Shown here: positions 16,992 through 23,335 of the stretch, in pieces
Layout: each line of letters begins with the position of its first letter
Position numbering within the stretch: the stretch's first letter is position 1
Virus record (IMG/VR): IMGVR_UViG_3300045921_000239
Span: 1 to 23,386 of that record
Source of the DNA: a virus
Direction: 5' to 3' (one strand)
Length of the DNA stretch: 23,386 nucleotides
Notes under the pieces: generated by a model
Databases searched by the model: none
Seen by the model: the letters and a program-made list of their open reading frames with translations, nothing else
Told to the model about the DNA's origin: nothing
Program-made: the position numbers and the translations under genes

Positions 16992-17295
16992 TGAGCTTCT
17001 TCTCCTCGTCGGGCCTCGCGCGGCGAAGCCTGTAGAACTTGATGCGTTCGGTGACCAGAAGCACGGAGACACCCTGCGCAGAGAGCGAGCGACCGAGCGC
17101 GTCCCGCGCGTCGTTCGGCATGTCTTCGGGAACCTCAATGATCACAACATCGCCAACGGGTCCGCGGAAGAAGCAGCGATAGCCCTCGGCTTCCTTCACG
17201 CTCGTGATGCGTCGAGCGTCTTCCGCGGTGTCCACGATCTCGTACCAGCCGTCATGCGCGCGGCGCCCGACAAGGTGCTTTTTCGGCTTCTTCAC
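16795..17295 (-). CDS. Hypothetical protein, 166 aa, C-terminus overlapping ruvC-like gene
   Basis: The first ~105 residues look like a normal mixed domain (HLVGRRAHDGWYEIVDTAEDARRITSVKEAEGYRCFFRGPVGDVVIIEVPED; GVSVLLVTERIKFYRLRRARPDEE). The last ~65 residues are Glu/Ala/Pro-rich and lie entirely over the start of the RuvC-like gene in another frame. GTG 17295 follows GAGGGTG and overlaps the TGA of the SbcDC gene (GTGA), so the start is well supported. The family is unknown. The tail may be genuine disordered sequence or only tolerated by the overlap. Confidence 0.6.
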   Translation of the reverse strand: MKKPKKHLVGRRAHDGWYEIVDTAEDARRITSVKEAEGYRCFFRGPVGDVVIIEVPEDMPNDARDALGRSLSAQGVSVLLVTERIKFYRLRRARPDEEKKLNAHTQVENGEASASAPAEHEAPEDPLAGPLTDSDGAWSDRRNGSAHEERDAPLAGDEGKPDRVAP

Positions 17296-20200
17296 GACAC
17301 CCTCTTCAAGGTGAACGACCCATCATCCGCAGTCCCGGCTTCGAAGATCACGTCGAACTCGCCCTGCACGCCGGCATCGTGATCAATCACGAGCACGGTC
17401 TCGCGATCGAGCACACGAAGCAAGTTGCAAAGCAGCGGCTTCGTGTCGGGATCGAGATGCGTCGTGAGTTCGTCCACGACGAGCAGGCGCACGCGCACAC
17501 CGCAGCGCGCAAAGATCATCTCGGAGAGGGCGAATGGCGAGAACGCGAGTTCGACGCAACGACGCTGCCCACCCGAAAGCTGCCAAAACGTACGCTCGAC
17601 GTGCGTGCCCTTGTCCGACTTGAACTCGTAGAACTTCAGCGCGAGGTCATCACCATCCATCACGATGCGCGTGTAGATGCGCCCGGAGAGCATGGACGCG
17701 AGCGCAACATTCGCGTGCGTTTCCAGTTCGTAGAGCACCGTGCGCAACACGAGAGCAGGCACGCCCTTCGCGCCGAAGCCCTCTTCCCACACGCGCAGCA
17801 TCGCGAGGTTGACGCGCGCTTCGGAGAGCTTCGCCTGCGCCTCGGAGAGCGCAGCGCGATAGCTCTCGCGCGCCGCTTCCACCTCCTTTGCCTTTTCGAT
17901 GAACGGGTTCACCTCCGCGCTTTTCGTCGTCCACTGCGTGCGCGCTTCAGCGAGCCTCCGTTCGAGCGCCGCCTTCGCTTCCTTCATGCGACCAATCGCA
18001 GAGATCGCCTCGGAGCACTTCGCGTGCGCCGCGCGCGCTTCTTCCAGTTGTGCGATGAGAGCGGACTTGTCCGGCGCGGGACCCATCCTGAGGGCGTCGA
18101 TCTGCGCGCGCAGGCTCATCACGCGCATGCTCATCTGATCGGCTTCTTGCTGCTTGGACGCGATCTTCATCTCGACCTCTTCGAGGTGAGCATCGAGATC
18201 GTTGCCTGGCAACGGTTGCCCGCACACCTTGCAAGTCAGCACCTGCCCTGCCTCGCGTGCCTGCATCATCGCTTGCAGATCGGCCTTCATGCGCGCGACA
18301 TCGCGTAGCACGATCGCGTATTCGGCTTCAGCGGCTCCGAGATCGGTTGCAATCTTGCGCTGCGCGTCATCGCTTGAGCTGGCAGCGAGGCTCTTCGTCA
18401 GAGTCGTGATGTGAGCGTCGTACGCGTTGCGGCGTTCGATCCACACATTCTCGTGCGCGAGATGAGGCTCAATCTGCGCGATCTGCGCGGCCGCTTCTTG
18501 CGCGTGCTGCGTGAGCATCTCCAGCGTCGAGACCTTCTGCTGCTCCCACTGTGCCACCTGCGTCGCGAAGTCGGCGCGAGCGAGCGCGTCGAGACCCGCC
18601 CGCGCCTCGTTCTCGCGCATCGTGTAGAGCGTCACGTTAGCTTCGTGCTGCTTCATCTCCTCGCGCACGATCTTCTGCGCATGCTCGCAAGCGCCCAGTC
18701 CGAACGCCCGCGAGAGAAGCTCCTTCCGCTTCTTGTCGGCATCGGTCACGAAGTTCGCGACGGCGCCTTGTCCGAGGTAGACGGTCGCACGCCACAGATC
18801 GAGGTCAAGACCGACGATGCGGTGCACGGCCTCCTGCGTGTCAGAGATCCCGTTCAAGTCGTGCATCGCGTCGATGCCGTGCAGGCGCAGCTTCGCACCC
18901 TGCCCGCGCTTCTTCGTGCGCTCGATCGTGATGACCTTCTGCTCCTCGGCGTCGGGCGGATCAAGCGTGACCTCGACGCGCACCGCTACCTCGTCGCTCT
19001 CGTCGTGGATCACGTCGTCAGCGCGCAGCGTTCCGGCACGATCACCAGGCTTGCGCGGCGTCGTCGCGCCGTAGAGCGCCCACGTGATCGCGTCACACAC
19101 GCTCGTCTTGCCGATGCCCATGCGGCCGCGAATGAGCACTGGACCAAGGTTGCGCAGATCGAAGCGCTGCGAGTTCTTCAGCGCGCAGAAGTTCAGCGTG
19201 TACACACTGAGGATGCGTACATGCGGCGAGAGCGGCGCGATCGTGCGCGCATCAGGCACCTGCGCGAGGTAACGACGCCCGATGGACACGAGCTGATCGA
19301 GTTCATCTTCGCTCGGCTCAACACCCGTCGCACGCTGCGCCTTCAACCACTCCTCGACGAAGAGTCGCACACCTTCGGCAAGCGTGAGCGCGAACGTCGG
19401 CGCAAGCGAAGTACCACTCTCATCCTTCGCGAGCGGCAGCGGACGCACGTCACGCGCACACACCTTGCTCAGCGCTTGACGCAGCGCAGGCCCACTGAGA
19501 TCGTCGGGCGCGAAGTACATCTCCACGACGTCCTGCGGACGCACAACGGAAAGCTTCTCCCCATCCTCAGGCCACGTGAATCGATGATGCTTCGGAAAGT
19601 CGTCGAGATCGAGAAAGCACGGCTCGACACTCTCACTGTCCACGATCGCGATGCCATGCGGCTCATCTCGTTCCCCGAAGTTCATCTCGAACGGAGAGCC
19701 GATGTACCACGTACGATCGCCGAGCTTCTGCCTCTTGTGGTAGTGCCCGACGTAGCATGCGCGCGCGCGCTTCTCGATGACGTCGAGCCCGACACGACCC
19801 GCGGCCGACTTGCCTGAGTTCGCAACGGCACCCTGTACCTCAGCATGAGCGAAGATCGTCCAGCCTTCGCCCGGCAGCGCAGCGAATGTCTCGGCCTGCT
19901 TCTCGGGCTCCTCGCGCCACGGGATGAACGCGAGCTTGCGATCGAGATCGACGAACGGCTCGGTCGCAACGGTCACGTGTGAGAACGCATCGAAGATGCG
20001 CACCGCATTGACCTCACCATCCATCGAAACCTGGTCGTGGTTGCCAGGCACGATGATCAATCGCACGCCCTCGTTGCCCCACTTCTCGAACTCGCGTTGC
20101 ACGAGGTCGAGATGCCGCACTGCGAGCGCCGTTCGCTGATCCCAGAAGTCACCGAGACAGATTGCAGGACAGTCGTAGTGCTTCGCGATGTCGCGCACGC

Positions 20201-20402
20201 GATCGAGCAGCGCAAGCGCACGATCGATCGTCTTGTTGCCGACGTGCAGATCGGTAAAGACGATGAAGCGCCACTCGGCGGTCTTCAGCGACGGGAGTAC
20301 GAGCGTCGCCGGAGACGACGCGGCGGGAATGAGACCGCGCAGCTTGCGCGGTGCAGTCGTCGTCGGCGCCGCAGGCTTCGGCGTCTTCTTCCTACTCGCC
20401 AT
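17292..20402 (-). CDS. SbcD-SbcC (Mre11-Rad50) fusion nuclease-ATPase, 1036 aa
   Basis: One polypeptide joins two proteins that are normally separate. Residues ~40-250 are the Mre11/SbcD phosphoesterase: TDLH (Asp51, His53), GDFWD (84-88), GNHD (120-123), FAHAEV (His186) and GHYH (219-222). After a helical linker, residues ~395-1036 are Rad50/SbcC: Walker A GRMGIGKTS (426-434), long coiled coils, a zinc hook CKVCG (724-728), the ABC signature LSGGQRR (942-948), and Walker B LLVVDE (973-978) with a D-loop and final His (VLVIDHD). The equivalent T4 proteins are gp47 and gp46. The complex resects DNA ends for recombination. ATG 20402 has AGGAG 7 bases upstream and overlaps the recA stop; upstream codons are not needed. 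All catalytic motifs are intact. Confidence 0.93.
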   Translation of the reverse strand: MASRKKTPKPAAPTTTAPRKLRGLIPAASSPATLVLPSLKTAEWRFIVFTDLHVGNKTIDRALALLDRVRDIAKHYDCPAICLGDFWDQRTALAVRHLDLVQREFEKWGNEGVRLIIVPGNHDQVSMDGEVNAVRIFDAFSHVTVATEPFVDLDRKLAFIPWREEPEKQAETFAALPGEGWTIFAHAEVQGAVANSGKSAAGRVGLDVIEKRARACYVGHYHKRQKLGDRTWYIGSPFEMNFGERDEPHGIAIVDSESVEPCFLDLDDFPKHHRFTWPEDGEKLSVVRPQDVVEMYFAPDDLSGPALRQALSKVCARDVRPLPLAKDESGTSLAPTFALTLAEGVRLFVEEWLKAQRATGVEPSEDELDQLVSIGRRYLAQVPDARTIAPLSPHVRILSVYTLNFCALKNSQRFDLRNLGPVLIRGRMGIGKTSVCDAITWALYGATTPRKPGDRAGTLRADDVIHDESDEVAVRVEVTLDPPDAEEQKVITIERTKKRGQGAKLRLHGIDAMHDLNGISDTQEAVHRIVGLDLDLWRATVYLGQGAVANFVTDADKKRKELLSRAFGLGACEHAQKIVREEMKQHEANVTLYTMRENEARAGLDALARADFATQVAQWEQQKVSTLEMLTQHAQEAAAQIAQIEPHLAHENVWIERRNAYDAHITTLTKSLAASSSDDAQRKIATDLGAAEAEYAIVLRDVARMKADLQAMMQAREAGQVLTCKVCGQPLPGNDLDAHLEEVEMKIASKQQEADQMSMRVMSLRAQIDALRMGPAPDKSALIAQLEEARAAHAKCSEAISAIGRMKEAKAALERRLAEARTQWTTKSAEVNPFIEKAKEVEAARESYRAALSEAQAKLSEARVNLAMLRVWEEGFGAKGVPALVLRTVLYELETHANVALASMLSGRIYTRIVMDGDDLALKFYEFKSDKGTHVERTFWQLSGGQRRCVELAFSPFALSEMIFARCGVRVRLLVVDELTTHLDPDTKPLLCNLLRVLDRETVLVIDHDAGVQGEFDVIFEAGTADDGSFTLKRVS

Positions 20403-21561
20403 CGTCGTTCTCCTCGTTGTCCTCGTCGGCTTCGGGCGCGATCGCATCCTCACCATCACGCATGAAGTGATCGGCCATCATGGCATATGCATCAGGTCGT
20501 TCGACGAACACCTTCCCGAGCCCGATGAACTTCTGCTGAAAAGCGACGTGCGATCCGTCAGGCAACATCAAGTACTGCCACTGTGGCGTCTCGACGATCC
20601 ACTTGTGATCAGACGTGAGGCCCGCGCTCTTGCCCCACGTGTAGAGCGTCCACGCGTTGTCGAAGCCCGCGCCGTAGATCAGCGCTGCCTGCGCCGGAGG
20701 TCTGGGCGAACGCACGCGCGTCTTCTTCGTCTTCGCCTCGACCTCGTGCCCGAGGACGTTCTCGCCGATCTTGATCTGACCCTTCGCAGAGAGCCACAAG
20801 CGCAAGCTGGTGAAGTAGCGCACGCCCGAGCCACCGCTCGTCTTCATCGTCGCGAATGGGCCGATGTCCGTGTAGAAGTGATTCACGAACACGAACGCGA
20901 TGCGCAAGTCCGCGATCCGCGCGCAGATGCGGCGGAAGTTCAGCTTGATCACCTTCGCCGCTTCAGCGACGTGACGATCATCAGGGTCACCCGCAAGCTC
21001 CCTCTTCGTCGGCGTCGCACCGAGAGAATCCCACACGAGCAAGAGCGGCGGCGGCTTCTCCTTTCGCCGACGGAACTCCGCTGCGAGCTTCTCTTGCACC
21101 GTCAGCACCGAGTCCGTCGCCTCGAACACGTCTTCGACGGTCTCGACACGCTTCGTCAAAAGCTTGTCGATGTCTACGCCGAGCCTGCGCGTATACACTG
21201 CATCGCGCGAGTGCTCCGTGTCGATCACCGCGCCGATGCCCCCCATGCGCTGCACTTGCGCCAGCGACTGATCGATCAGCGTGCTCTTGCCGACGCCCTC
21301 CCATGACGCGCACTCACTCACGCGTCCGATCGGCCATCCTCCGCGCGGCCCGCCGATGAGCTTGTCAATCGCGAGGTTGCCCGTGCTCACGAACTCATCG
21401 ATCGGCGTGTCGAGCCCATCACGTCCGAAGAAGCCGAATGCATCGTCGTCCTTCGGATTGAGCTTCCTCAGCTCTTCAAGAAACCGATCCGCATCACTCT
21501 TCACCATCTTCTTCGGCGTGCTCTTCTTCGGAGCACTCACACTGCGGGGCTTGCGCTGCAT
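20392..21561 (-). CDS. recA: RecA/UvsX-type recombinase, 389 aa
   Basis: Catalyses ATP-dependent strand exchange on ssDNA. Visible RecA features: STGNLAIDKLIGG (about 59-71), Walker A WEGVGKST (87-94), DTEHSRDAVYTRRLGVD (114-130) with Glu117 matching the catalytic Glu, Walker B LLLVWDS (173-179), and FVFVNHFYTDIGPFATMKTSGGSGVRYFTSLRL (about 223-255), covering the L1/L2 DNA-binding region with the conserved Asn. The His after that Asn replaces the usual Gln, and an acidic C-terminal tail (EADEDNEENDDGE) is present as in RecA proteins. ATG 21561 has GGAG 3 bases upstream. It lies between the ssDNA-binding protein and SbcDC, overlapping the latter by 11 bases. The recA symbol is by function; uvsX would also fit. 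Confidence 0.92.
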   Translation of the reverse strand: MQRKPRSVSAPKKSTPKKMVKSDADRFLEELRKLNPKDDDAFGFFGRDGLDTPIDEFVSTGNLAIDKLIGGPRGGWPIGRVSECASWEGVGKSTLIDQSLAQVQRMGGIGAVIDTEHSRDAVYTRRLGVDIDKLLTKRVETVEDVFEATDSVLTVQEKLAAEFRRRKEKPPPLLLVWDSLGATPTKRELAGDPDDRHVAEAAKVIKLNFRRICARIADLRIAFVFVNHFYTDIGPFATMKTSGGSGVRYFTSLRLWLSAKGQIKIGENVLGHEVEAKTKKTRVRSPRPPAQAALIYGAGFDNAWTLYTWGKSAGLTSDHKWIVETPQWQYLMLPDGSHVAFQQKFIGLGKVFVERPDAYAMMADHFMRDGEDAIAPEADEDNEENDDGE

Positions 21562-21596
21562 CTTCTCTCCGCCGATCAATCACTAGAAACGAACGC

Positions 21597-21655: not shown

Positions 21656-23335
21656 TCAGAACGGCGCCTCGTCGCCCGCGGCGATCGCCTTCTCGATCTG
21701 CTCAGGAGTCAGCGCACCGGAGTTACCAGCGGGAGGAGCGGGAGGAGCCACCAGACCTCCGACCGGTCCGTCCGGCATCGGGGGCAGATCGGGCAACGCG
21801 GGCAGAGGCGGCAGCCCCGGCGGCGGTGCCGCCGCGACACCCGGAGGCAGGAACGGCGGAGGTACCACGGCGCCGCTCGCGAGACCGGGCGCGACGGGCG
21901 GCGGCAGCTCCGGGAGCGACGGCGGCGGCGCGTAGCCGGGCACGGGAACGCTCGCGACGGGCGGCGGGGGCGGCGGCCCGCCAGGCGGCATGGCGAGCAT
22001 GGCGGGCATGGCGGGCATGGCTCCAGGAGGCGCGTAGACGCCCTGAGGGGGCGCAGCGGGCACGGGCGGCGGAGCAGCGGGCACGGGCGGAGCAGCGGGC
22101 ACGGGCGGAGCAGCGGGCACGGGCGGGGGCACGGGCGGGCTCGCGGGGCGCACCTGCCCCGTCGTCCGGTTGTACTCGTACGCCGGGTTGCTCGGATGCG
22201 CGACCCACTGCCCGATACTCGGAGGCACCACGGGCACGCTCGGAATCGAATACATCTTCACGAGACCAAAGCGTTCGCGGATCTTCTGAGCGATCTTGCC
22301 CATCTCCTCCTTCGGGCGGATGCGGATGCACTGCTCACGCAGGTCATAGAGGTTGCCCAGCACGCTGCGCAGTTGCGGATCGAGCGGCGTCGGCCCGGTC
22401 ATGTCAGGCACCGCGTCATACTCGACGTTCATCGGGTACGAGCCGCGCGAAGAGCGCTTCTTGATCAACCGCACATTCAACCCGCGGTCGGGATGCGTGA
22501 GCGTCCGCGCCTCGCAGACGAGATTCAGCAGCTTGCGCCCGAGCGTCGGAGGCATCGTCAGGATGCCCGGCTGGACGATCCAAAGCACCTGCCCGGTCTG
22601 CGGATCGATGACGGGCTGCCCGTCGCGCGTGTACTGCTTGAAGTGCTTCGCAGGCTCGTCGAGATGCAGGCCCTGCCAGTAGTGGCGTTCCTGCGCCTTC
22701 GCATCAGAACCGAAGTCGTTCGCCTCTTTGTTGTCGCTCGTGCTGCACTCACTGATCGCGGCGCAGATGTCGCAATCGCCGAGCCCGCGCGACTTGTGCG
22801 CCTCGTAGCACTCGGGGAAGAACCACTGGCTCTTCCAGTTCGGCTGCCACCGAGGATCCATCTCCGCGTAAAGCCGGTGGCGCGCGCCGATGACCCACGC
22901 AGCCTTTTCGATGGGCGACCACGGCGGAAGCAACCGGACCATCATCTTGACCTCGCTGCCGACCTCCTTCGGAAGCTCGGGAAAGTCGAGGTAGATGACC
23001 TCTTCGTCTCGTCGGTTGCCGCGCGCAGCACGCTCCGCTTCGTGCTTCGCGAGATTCGGATCGATCTCACCGTAGCTCGGCGCAGGAAGACCCACGAACT
23101 GCGCCGCGACTGCGGGTGCCGACTGCATCTGCCGCATGTCACTCGGGTTCGCGGGATCGTACTCCCACCCCGGCGCGCTCGGATGCGGCACGTACTGCGC
23201 AGGCGGCGGTGCGGGCGGCAGTGCGGCGGGGTTCACCTGCACCATCTCCGCGGTTTGCGGATTGTAGAAGAAGCCCGGCGCGTTCGGGTGAGCGAGCCAT
23301 CCGGCGGGCGCGGCGGGAACAACCTTGTAGCTCAT
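21656..23335 (-). CDS. Single-stranded DNA-binding protein, gp32-like core with repeats and Pro-rich tail, 559 aa
   Basis: The central part (about residues 112-340) resembles T4 gp32: MMVRLLPPW, then a zinc site WFFPECYEAHKSRGLGDCDICAAI with Cys176, His180, Cys188 and Cys191, then HYWQGLHL (about 218-225) and later strands. It would coat ssDNA and work with RecA and SbcDC downstream. Outside the core are three repeats of a W-x-x-HP-x-x-P-x-[FWY]-x-Y-[ND]-P motif (about 12-34, 48-70 and 377-398), a long Pro/Ala-rich region (399-540) and an end, GDEAPF, like the DDDIPF tip of bacterial SSB. ATG 23335 follows an AGGAG site; an upstream GTG at 23386 is rejected. The gp32 assignment rests on motifs, not overall identity. 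Confidence 0.78.
   Translation of the reverse strand: MSYKVVPAAPAGWLAHPNAPGFFYNPQTAEMVQVNPAALPPAPPPAQYVPHPSAPGWEYDPANPSDMRQMQSAPAVAAQFVGLPAPSYGEIDPNLAKHEAERAARGNRRDEEVIYLDFPELPKEVGSEVKMMVRLLPPWSPIEKAAWVIGARHRLYAEMDPRWQPNWKSQWFFPECYEAHKSRGLGDCDICAAISECSTSDNKEANDFGSDAKAQERHYWQGLHLDEPAKHFKQYTRDGQPVIDPQTGQVLWIVQPGILTMPPTLGRKLLNLVCEARTLTHPDRGLNVRLIKKRSSRGSYPMNVEYDAVPDMTGPTPLDPQLRSVLGNLYDLREQCIRIRPKEEMGKIAQKIRERFGLVKMYSIPSVPVVPPSIGQWVAHPSNPAYEYNRTTGQVRPASPPVPPPVPAAPPVPAAPPVPAAPPPVPAAPPQGVYAPPGAMPAMPAMLAMPPGGPPPPPPVASVPVPGYAPPPSLPELPPPVAPGLASGAVVPPPFLPPGVAAAPPPGLPPLPALPDLPPMPDGPVGGLVAPPAPPAGNSGALTPEQIEKAIAAGDEAPF
22053..22140. repeat. 18-bp tandem repeat coding for the Pro/Ala tail
   Basis: Four copies of a unit GCAGCGGGCACGGGCGGA (the first with three extra bases) run from 22053 to 22127, then a shortened copy follows. 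In the minus-strand frame they encode VPAAPP repeats. A second 9-base repeat (GGCGGGCAT-like, at about 21990-22020) encodes MPAMPAM. Slippage between copies would lengthen or shorten the tail in frame. Confidence 0.8.

Follow-up and report, generated by a model that had tools for sequence, protein, structure and literature searches.

The window, by which we mean the whole 23.4-kb stretch of a virus record that was analysed here, encodes phage recombination genes. Among its genes is that of a putative ssDNA-binding protein (SSB), whose features are collected in Table 1 together with the neighbouring recombinase gene. A homologue at 3183-4871 of L004 (IMG/VR 3300027823_000001) is 66% identical over the protein and 71% identical in the core alignment. 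In all 12 of the 12 related contigs from which SSB genes were extracted, the gene order of the window is kept, with the SSB gene directly upstream of uvsX. Positions 17292-20459 of the window hold a single ORF of 1055 aa, apparently a fusion of an N-terminal SbcD-like and a C-terminal SbcC-like part, and the layout in L004 is alike.

Table 1. Features of the SSB gene and its neighbour in the window (residue numbers refer to the SSB).
Feature	Position	Strand	Remarks
Probable gp32-like ssDNA-binding protein, 559 aa + stop	21656..23335	(-)	ATG at 23335, AGGAG SD just upstream
Module copy 1 (r1), residues 12-36, GWLAHPNAPGFFYNPQTAEMVQVNP	23228..23302	(-)	predicted strands 14-15, 22-24, 31-34; pLDDT about 85-88
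Module copy 2 (r2), residues 47-70, QYVPHPSAPGWEYDPANPSDMRQM	23126..23197	(-)	predicted strands 49-50, 57-60, 63-69; pLDDT about 87-91
Probable gp32-like core, residues 85-361	22253..23083	(-)	phrog_1192, UvsX synteny, weak structural matches
Candidate zinc motif C176-x3-H180-x7-C188-x2-C191	22763..22810	(-)	zinc binding putative
Module copy 3 (r3), residues 376-398, QWVAHPSNPAYEYNRTTGQVRPA	22142..22210	(-)	predicted strands 377-379, 386-389, 395-397; pLDDT about 84
Pro/Ala-rich tail, residues 399-539	21719..22141	(-)	43% P, 18% A; 3 acidic, 0 basic residues
Conserved tail peptide PGLASGAVVPPPFLPPGVAA (L004: PGLASGAVVPPPFQPPGVGM)	21830..21889	(-)	kept in both phages as PGLASGAVVPPPF.PPGV; candidate linear motif
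C-terminal 20 residues, end ...GDEAPF (L004 ...TGTPF)	21659..21718	(-)	resembles Pro-Phe tips of other SSBs
UvsX-like recombinase	20392..21579	(-)	phrog_97 E=8.7e-52; directly downstream of SSB, 77-nt gap

An earlier note on this DNA had called the protein a gp32-like SSB, and this holds, if weakly, through the uvsX synteny and a match of the tail-less core to PHROG_1192 ('single strand DNA binding protein'). With E=0.0011 this is a weak profile match, and the score for the L004 homologue is E=0.095 only. The core is poorly modelled by AlphaFold, with low AF2 confidence, and its weak structural matches include T4 gp32 (8gme_B, Z 3.3 over 100 residues) and RB69 gp32 (2a1k_A, Z 2.7); a Foldseek search of the window model against the PDB gave no significant match. 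Because the PHROG match and the gp32 matches are weak and the core is badly modelled, we consider the protein only a probable, and divergent, gp32-like SSB. The candidate zinc motif is kept in L004, one residue shorter, and a related CxxC occurs in L040 and L041. Searched at full length, the protein (P0002) had no match in Pfam, PHROG, the PDB or phage records, probably because the Pro-rich tail hid the core. A match to Ochrobactrum phage ORM_20 (H1, E=7), which lies antisense to a gene, and PDB profile matches to lethal factor (E 0.2-1.2) were dismissed as chance.

The three repeats of one aromatic pattern that had been noticed in the protein are real, lie at the positions given in the earlier note and are non-random. 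The strict pattern [WY]xxHPxxP[GA][FWY]x[YW][ND], which is fitted to the repeats themselves, matches the protein three times and is found in none of 20,000 shuffles of the same residues; for a relaxed pattern the shuffled mean is 0.00015. Two of the window repeats begin with Trp (Tyr in r2), and the L004 homologue keeps all three repeats, each with an initial Trp. Compared with L004, dN/dS amounts to 0.19 for r1, 0.64 for r2, 0.36 for r3 and 0.24 for the core. Thus, r1 and r3 are under purifying selection much like the core, and r2 is the most diverged copy and is drifting. The linker ahead of r3 is nearly free of constraint (pN/pS about 0.85), and r3 itself sits between the core and the Pro/Ala-rich tail. 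A scan of IMG/VR with the strict NP-variant of the DNA pattern found only the two gp32-like carriers.

An AlphaFold2 prediction for the module, with 29 copies as input, gave three strands and a helix (beta-beta-beta-alpha) with a mean pLDDT of 89.6. The window repeats are the best-predicted parts of their protein (pLDDT about 84-91), with three strands each and two rows alone covering them fully. The prediction places them outside the OB core and does not leave them disordered; disorder and a place in the OB core were two of the outcomes that the earlier note had named as speaking against its reading. The models describe an autonomous mini-domain of about 25-35 residues that would consist of three short strands and, in a long form, an additional helix. 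The comparison with WW domains drawn in the earlier note may hold for no more than the overall shape, with its three predicted strands. In a structural search with the module, WW domains make up three of the six weak matches with Z of at least 2 (Z 2.0-2.1), and the shape may therefore be alike. Membership of the WW family is not supported. Alignment of the module with ten WW domains (from PDB alignments) by hhalign yields a probability of 0.3%, and the Pfam WW profile (PF00397) has no match in the window, in the L004 segments or in the carriers described below. WW domains contain two signature Trp residues about 20-22 apart, the second of which lines the proline groove; this second Trp is absent from all three window repeats. 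Module and WW domain have in common a length of about 30 residues, a leading GW, an aromatic second strand and, as predicted for the module, three strands in total, but the module also has a shorter turn 2, the helix of its long form and an occurrence in phages rather than eukaryotes.

The search among other small families, which had been suggested along with the WW comparison, was negative: on the window repeats no Pfam family was found at E up to 10, and OCRE, GYF and other small domains were not detected on the L004 segments. At E up to 1, Pfam searches of 20 carriers returned nothing covering the module except isolated weak matches in single members. Foldseek of the module against the PDB and viral models gave nothing significant, and its KatG rows were dismissed. 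The spacing GWYPDP..PG..YWDG of DUF2510 (PF10708) looks like that of the module; this family was rejected, with no profile match at E up to 10 in the window and nine carrier records.

Beyond the gp32-like proteins, a low-stringency tblastn search of named phages with the L004 repeats gave a single match, in the Gp2.5-like ssDNA-annealing protein of phage TPWB-08, which has a Pro/Ala tail with the end PPAGWQVHPQNPAFYYKGTEVLSEADLRARG. The TPWB-08 peptide, used as query, led to DUF669-type proteins in phages of Synechococcus (E=7e-5), Sphingomonas and Stenotrophomonas, encoded in each case beside a RecA-like or recombinase gene. When a DNA pattern of the type WxxHPxxP...KG was scanned through IMG/VR, about 24 of the 31 matches were module copies in Pro/Ala-rich tails. 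Their consensus is close to aDGWxxHPxxPGYxYKGQEVLTxADLxARYPAP and reaches well past the search pattern. Judged by their sequence, the window repeats belong to this wider module of ~31 residues, W-x2-HP-x2-P-[GA]-[YFWH]-x-[YFW]-(KG|N..). Pfam, independently of the module, assigns 9 of the 20 carriers to DUF669 and 8 to Enc34_ssDNA-bd, and these carriers match PHROG families named single strand DNA binding protein or Gp2.5-like. By the tblastn match and the pattern scan, the module is thus found in two unrelated phage ssDNA-binding families. The remaining three carriers (L078, L089, L090) form an uncharacterised Cys-containing family, CW..DG...CxxCP..GSK..AC, with 1-3 modules, which is probably another SSB family; a comparison with the gp32-like profile revealed no relation. 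A different aromatic motif, GTAAEVWWNGTDWVKPW (or DGTDW), occurs twice in the Pro/Ala tail of the L078 protein (227-1837). The number of modules per carrier ranges from 1 to 3, most carriers having one module in a low-complexity Ala/Pro tail. Sak4-like, exonuclease and DNA polymerase genes are found as carrier neighbours, in the window UvsX and the SbcCD-like fusion, and the carriers do not all have one recombinase in common. In GenBank, several of the genes that encode the module are annotated merely as 'hypothetical protein'.

The KG pattern has 68 matches in 84,980 prokaryote genomes, nearly all of them out of frame or due to chance, and 2 real. The two real copies (L118 5491-6141 and L144 4805-5170) are prophage copies on small, phage-like non-SSB proteins beside phage-like genes, one of them immediately preceding a primase/helicase-like gene. 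L152, we assume, resembles H-NS.

How closely the window repeats are tied to the long form was addressed with an HMM of 19 KG copies that contained no member of the window family. Among the ORFs of the window, of a near-identical contig and of the homologue's contig, it matches the window SSB with E=7.7e-8 over three domains and the L004 SSB with 3.4e-9, the next ORF being at 1.2; the pattern by which the KG copies had been chosen has W, HP and P in common with the window repeats. This selection is countered by the first tblastn jump, which was free of any pattern, and by positions outside the pattern, which agree too. GWLAHPNAPG is common letter for letter to the window family and L061. Bridging copies exist in L082, where a KG copy is followed by AGWVAHPSAPGWYYNAANPAEMLTEADLRAR, and in L061, which ends in AGWWPHPQAPGSFYNAQNEVLTEAQLRARG; both combine the N turn of the window family with a helix-type segment of the long form. 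The HMM match to the window repeats covers the first 14 positions only. With NP, DP or NR in place of the KG turn and no C-terminal helix, the window repeats could therefore differ in function from the long form.

We infer that the module is a protein-protein docking element. Its presence in the tails of at least two unrelated phage DNA-binding families suggests that phages reuse it as an add-on for docking on DNA undergoing replication or repair. More specifically, the modules would be docking mini-domains on flexible arms that recruit recombination or replication partners, a reading to which we give about even chances. The OB core would coat the ssDNA and the flexible arms would hold the modules outward, where they could grip a recombination or replication component encoded by a neighbouring gene, such as a UvsX/Sak4-type recombinase, an exonuclease or a polymerase. 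Several copies would add avidity, and the ssDNA-binding proteins to which phages would attach the mini-domain, by way of Pro/Ala-rich linkers, are structurally unrelated. On the side of computation stand the recurrence in several families, the confidently predicted fold, the purifying selection on r1 and r3 and the tails, which are rich in Pro and Ala and not acidic. The two prophage copies on non-SSB proteins count against docking. Those two copies also speak against modules that serve as extra ssDNA contacts, with exposed aromatics stacking on bases and extending the footprint. Such a role would agree with the conserved aromatics (W, [YFW]9, [YFW]11) and with carriers that are ssDNA-binding proteins, but net charge is zero or negative in 31 of the 33 module copies, which argues against DNA contact, and the KG lysine, sole conserved basic residue of the long form, is absent in the window family. 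We consider a DNA-contacting role very unlikely.

The tail of roughly 140 residues that had been described as proline-rich is confirmed, with a length of 141 residues. It includes PGLASGAVVPPPFLPPGV, PPLP and poly-Pro runs, and its residues 486-510 are 80% identical to L004 with a dN/dS of 0.14. The earlier note had proposed that a WW-like module of one SSB subunit might hold on to the Pro-rich tail of the next and so link subunits along ssDNA into a filament. The three-stranded predicted fold with its weak WW matches and a tail with poly-Pro runs, PPLP and a strongly conserved PPPFLPPGV are what such linking would use, and a link between the linker and the OB domain through PXXP has been proposed for E. 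coli SSB (PMC8881015). That proposal is contested, since E. coli SSB can do without its PxxP motifs and its tip, rather than the linker, is what RecG binds (PMC10164576). The module moreover has no sequence relation to WW and lacks the second Trp. The WW ligands PPxY and PPLP occur in one of 24 module-bearing tails each, and most carriers have single modules amid AP repeats. We do not favour subunit linking and regard it as unlikely. Low-complexity tails and a variable number of modules would also fit folded spacers, or shields for solubility or against proteases, that have no specific ligand. This we hold to be quite improbable: the W, H, P, P and aromatic positions are sharply conserved across unrelated carriers, and r1 and r3 evolve at rates like the core next to a barely constrained linker.

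Docking by the modules is also consistent with the composition of the tails. Acidic residues make up 1-10% of the carrier tails (one 19%); in gp32-like SSBs that have no module the share is 17-34%. Phage SSBs usually dock through an acidic C-terminus (PMC5686142, PMC5928155, PMC11551737), and because the carrier tails are poorly acidic, the modules may take over part of this role. Since Pro/Ala tails are favoured by GC-rich genomes in any case, composition may account for part of the apparent replacement of acidic tails. The Pro-Phe or Pro-Trp tip at the C-terminus would offer a further contact, by analogy with other SSBs such as bacterial SSB, which ends in DDDIPF, and HK620 SSB, which ends in NDYPPF (PMC5928155). 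A Pro-Pro-Trp (or Pro-Ser-Trp) tip lies about 10 residues or less from the C-terminus in 11 of 11 module-bearing DUF669 proteins (L057, L058, L059, L067, L068, L073, L077, L081, L082, L085 and L086) and in none of the other carriers. This tip looks like a counterpart of NDYPPF and DDDIPF. The Enc34-type carriers L069, L071 and L088 have a common C-terminal segment ...NGWxDxMxRQxGYLV, with a similar one in L064 that is cut at the contig end; possibly this is another docking element.

A tree of 25 long-form copies, built on 31 columns and hence of low resolution, has 8 changes of carrier label (minimum 2, shuffled mean 11.7); by this tree, copies moved between carrier families or arose more than once. 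A broader reading would have a mobile mini-domain act as a universal adaptor that is grafted onto any ssDNA-binding scaffold, recruits one common partner and replaces the classical acidic tail; we regard this as conceivable but doubtful. Literature searches found no description of the module, and module strings looked for in paper text had no match. No Pfam family covers the module, and SSB tails as docking arms are already known. It is through their tails that SSBs serve as hubs, and the rule so far has been a disordered acidic tail plus a short tip. Since a folded module on Pro/Ala arms is common to unrelated families of phage SSBs, tail function may be modular and exchangeable. In addition, the module provides a sequence handle for finding unannotated phage SSBs.

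Among known systems, T4 gp32 resembles the window protein in its core, as far as phrog_1192, the UvsX synteny and the weak structural matches go, and in a zinc-like CxxC motif. The C-terminus of T4 gp32 is acidic, and we know of no repeats of the module type in it. The Enc34 ORF6/T7 gp2.5-type SSBs (PF10991) are one of the two known families with module-bearing members. For Enc34 ORF6 itself, the part of its description on which we draw gives an acidic C-terminus with 16 of 29 residues D/E and does not mention a module of this kind (PMC5686142). The SSB of HK620, a DUF669 protein (PF05037) and a genuine SSB, recruits Sak4 through its C-terminus (PMC5928155), which makes it a precedent for the proposed docking. 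Its core is unlike that of the window protein, and the docking shown for it is through a six-residue tip, not through a module of this kind; it shares ssDNA binding, a place beside a recombinase gene and C-terminal docking, and its PPF tip is comparable to the PPW of the module-bearing DUF669 tails and to the APF and TPF of the window family.
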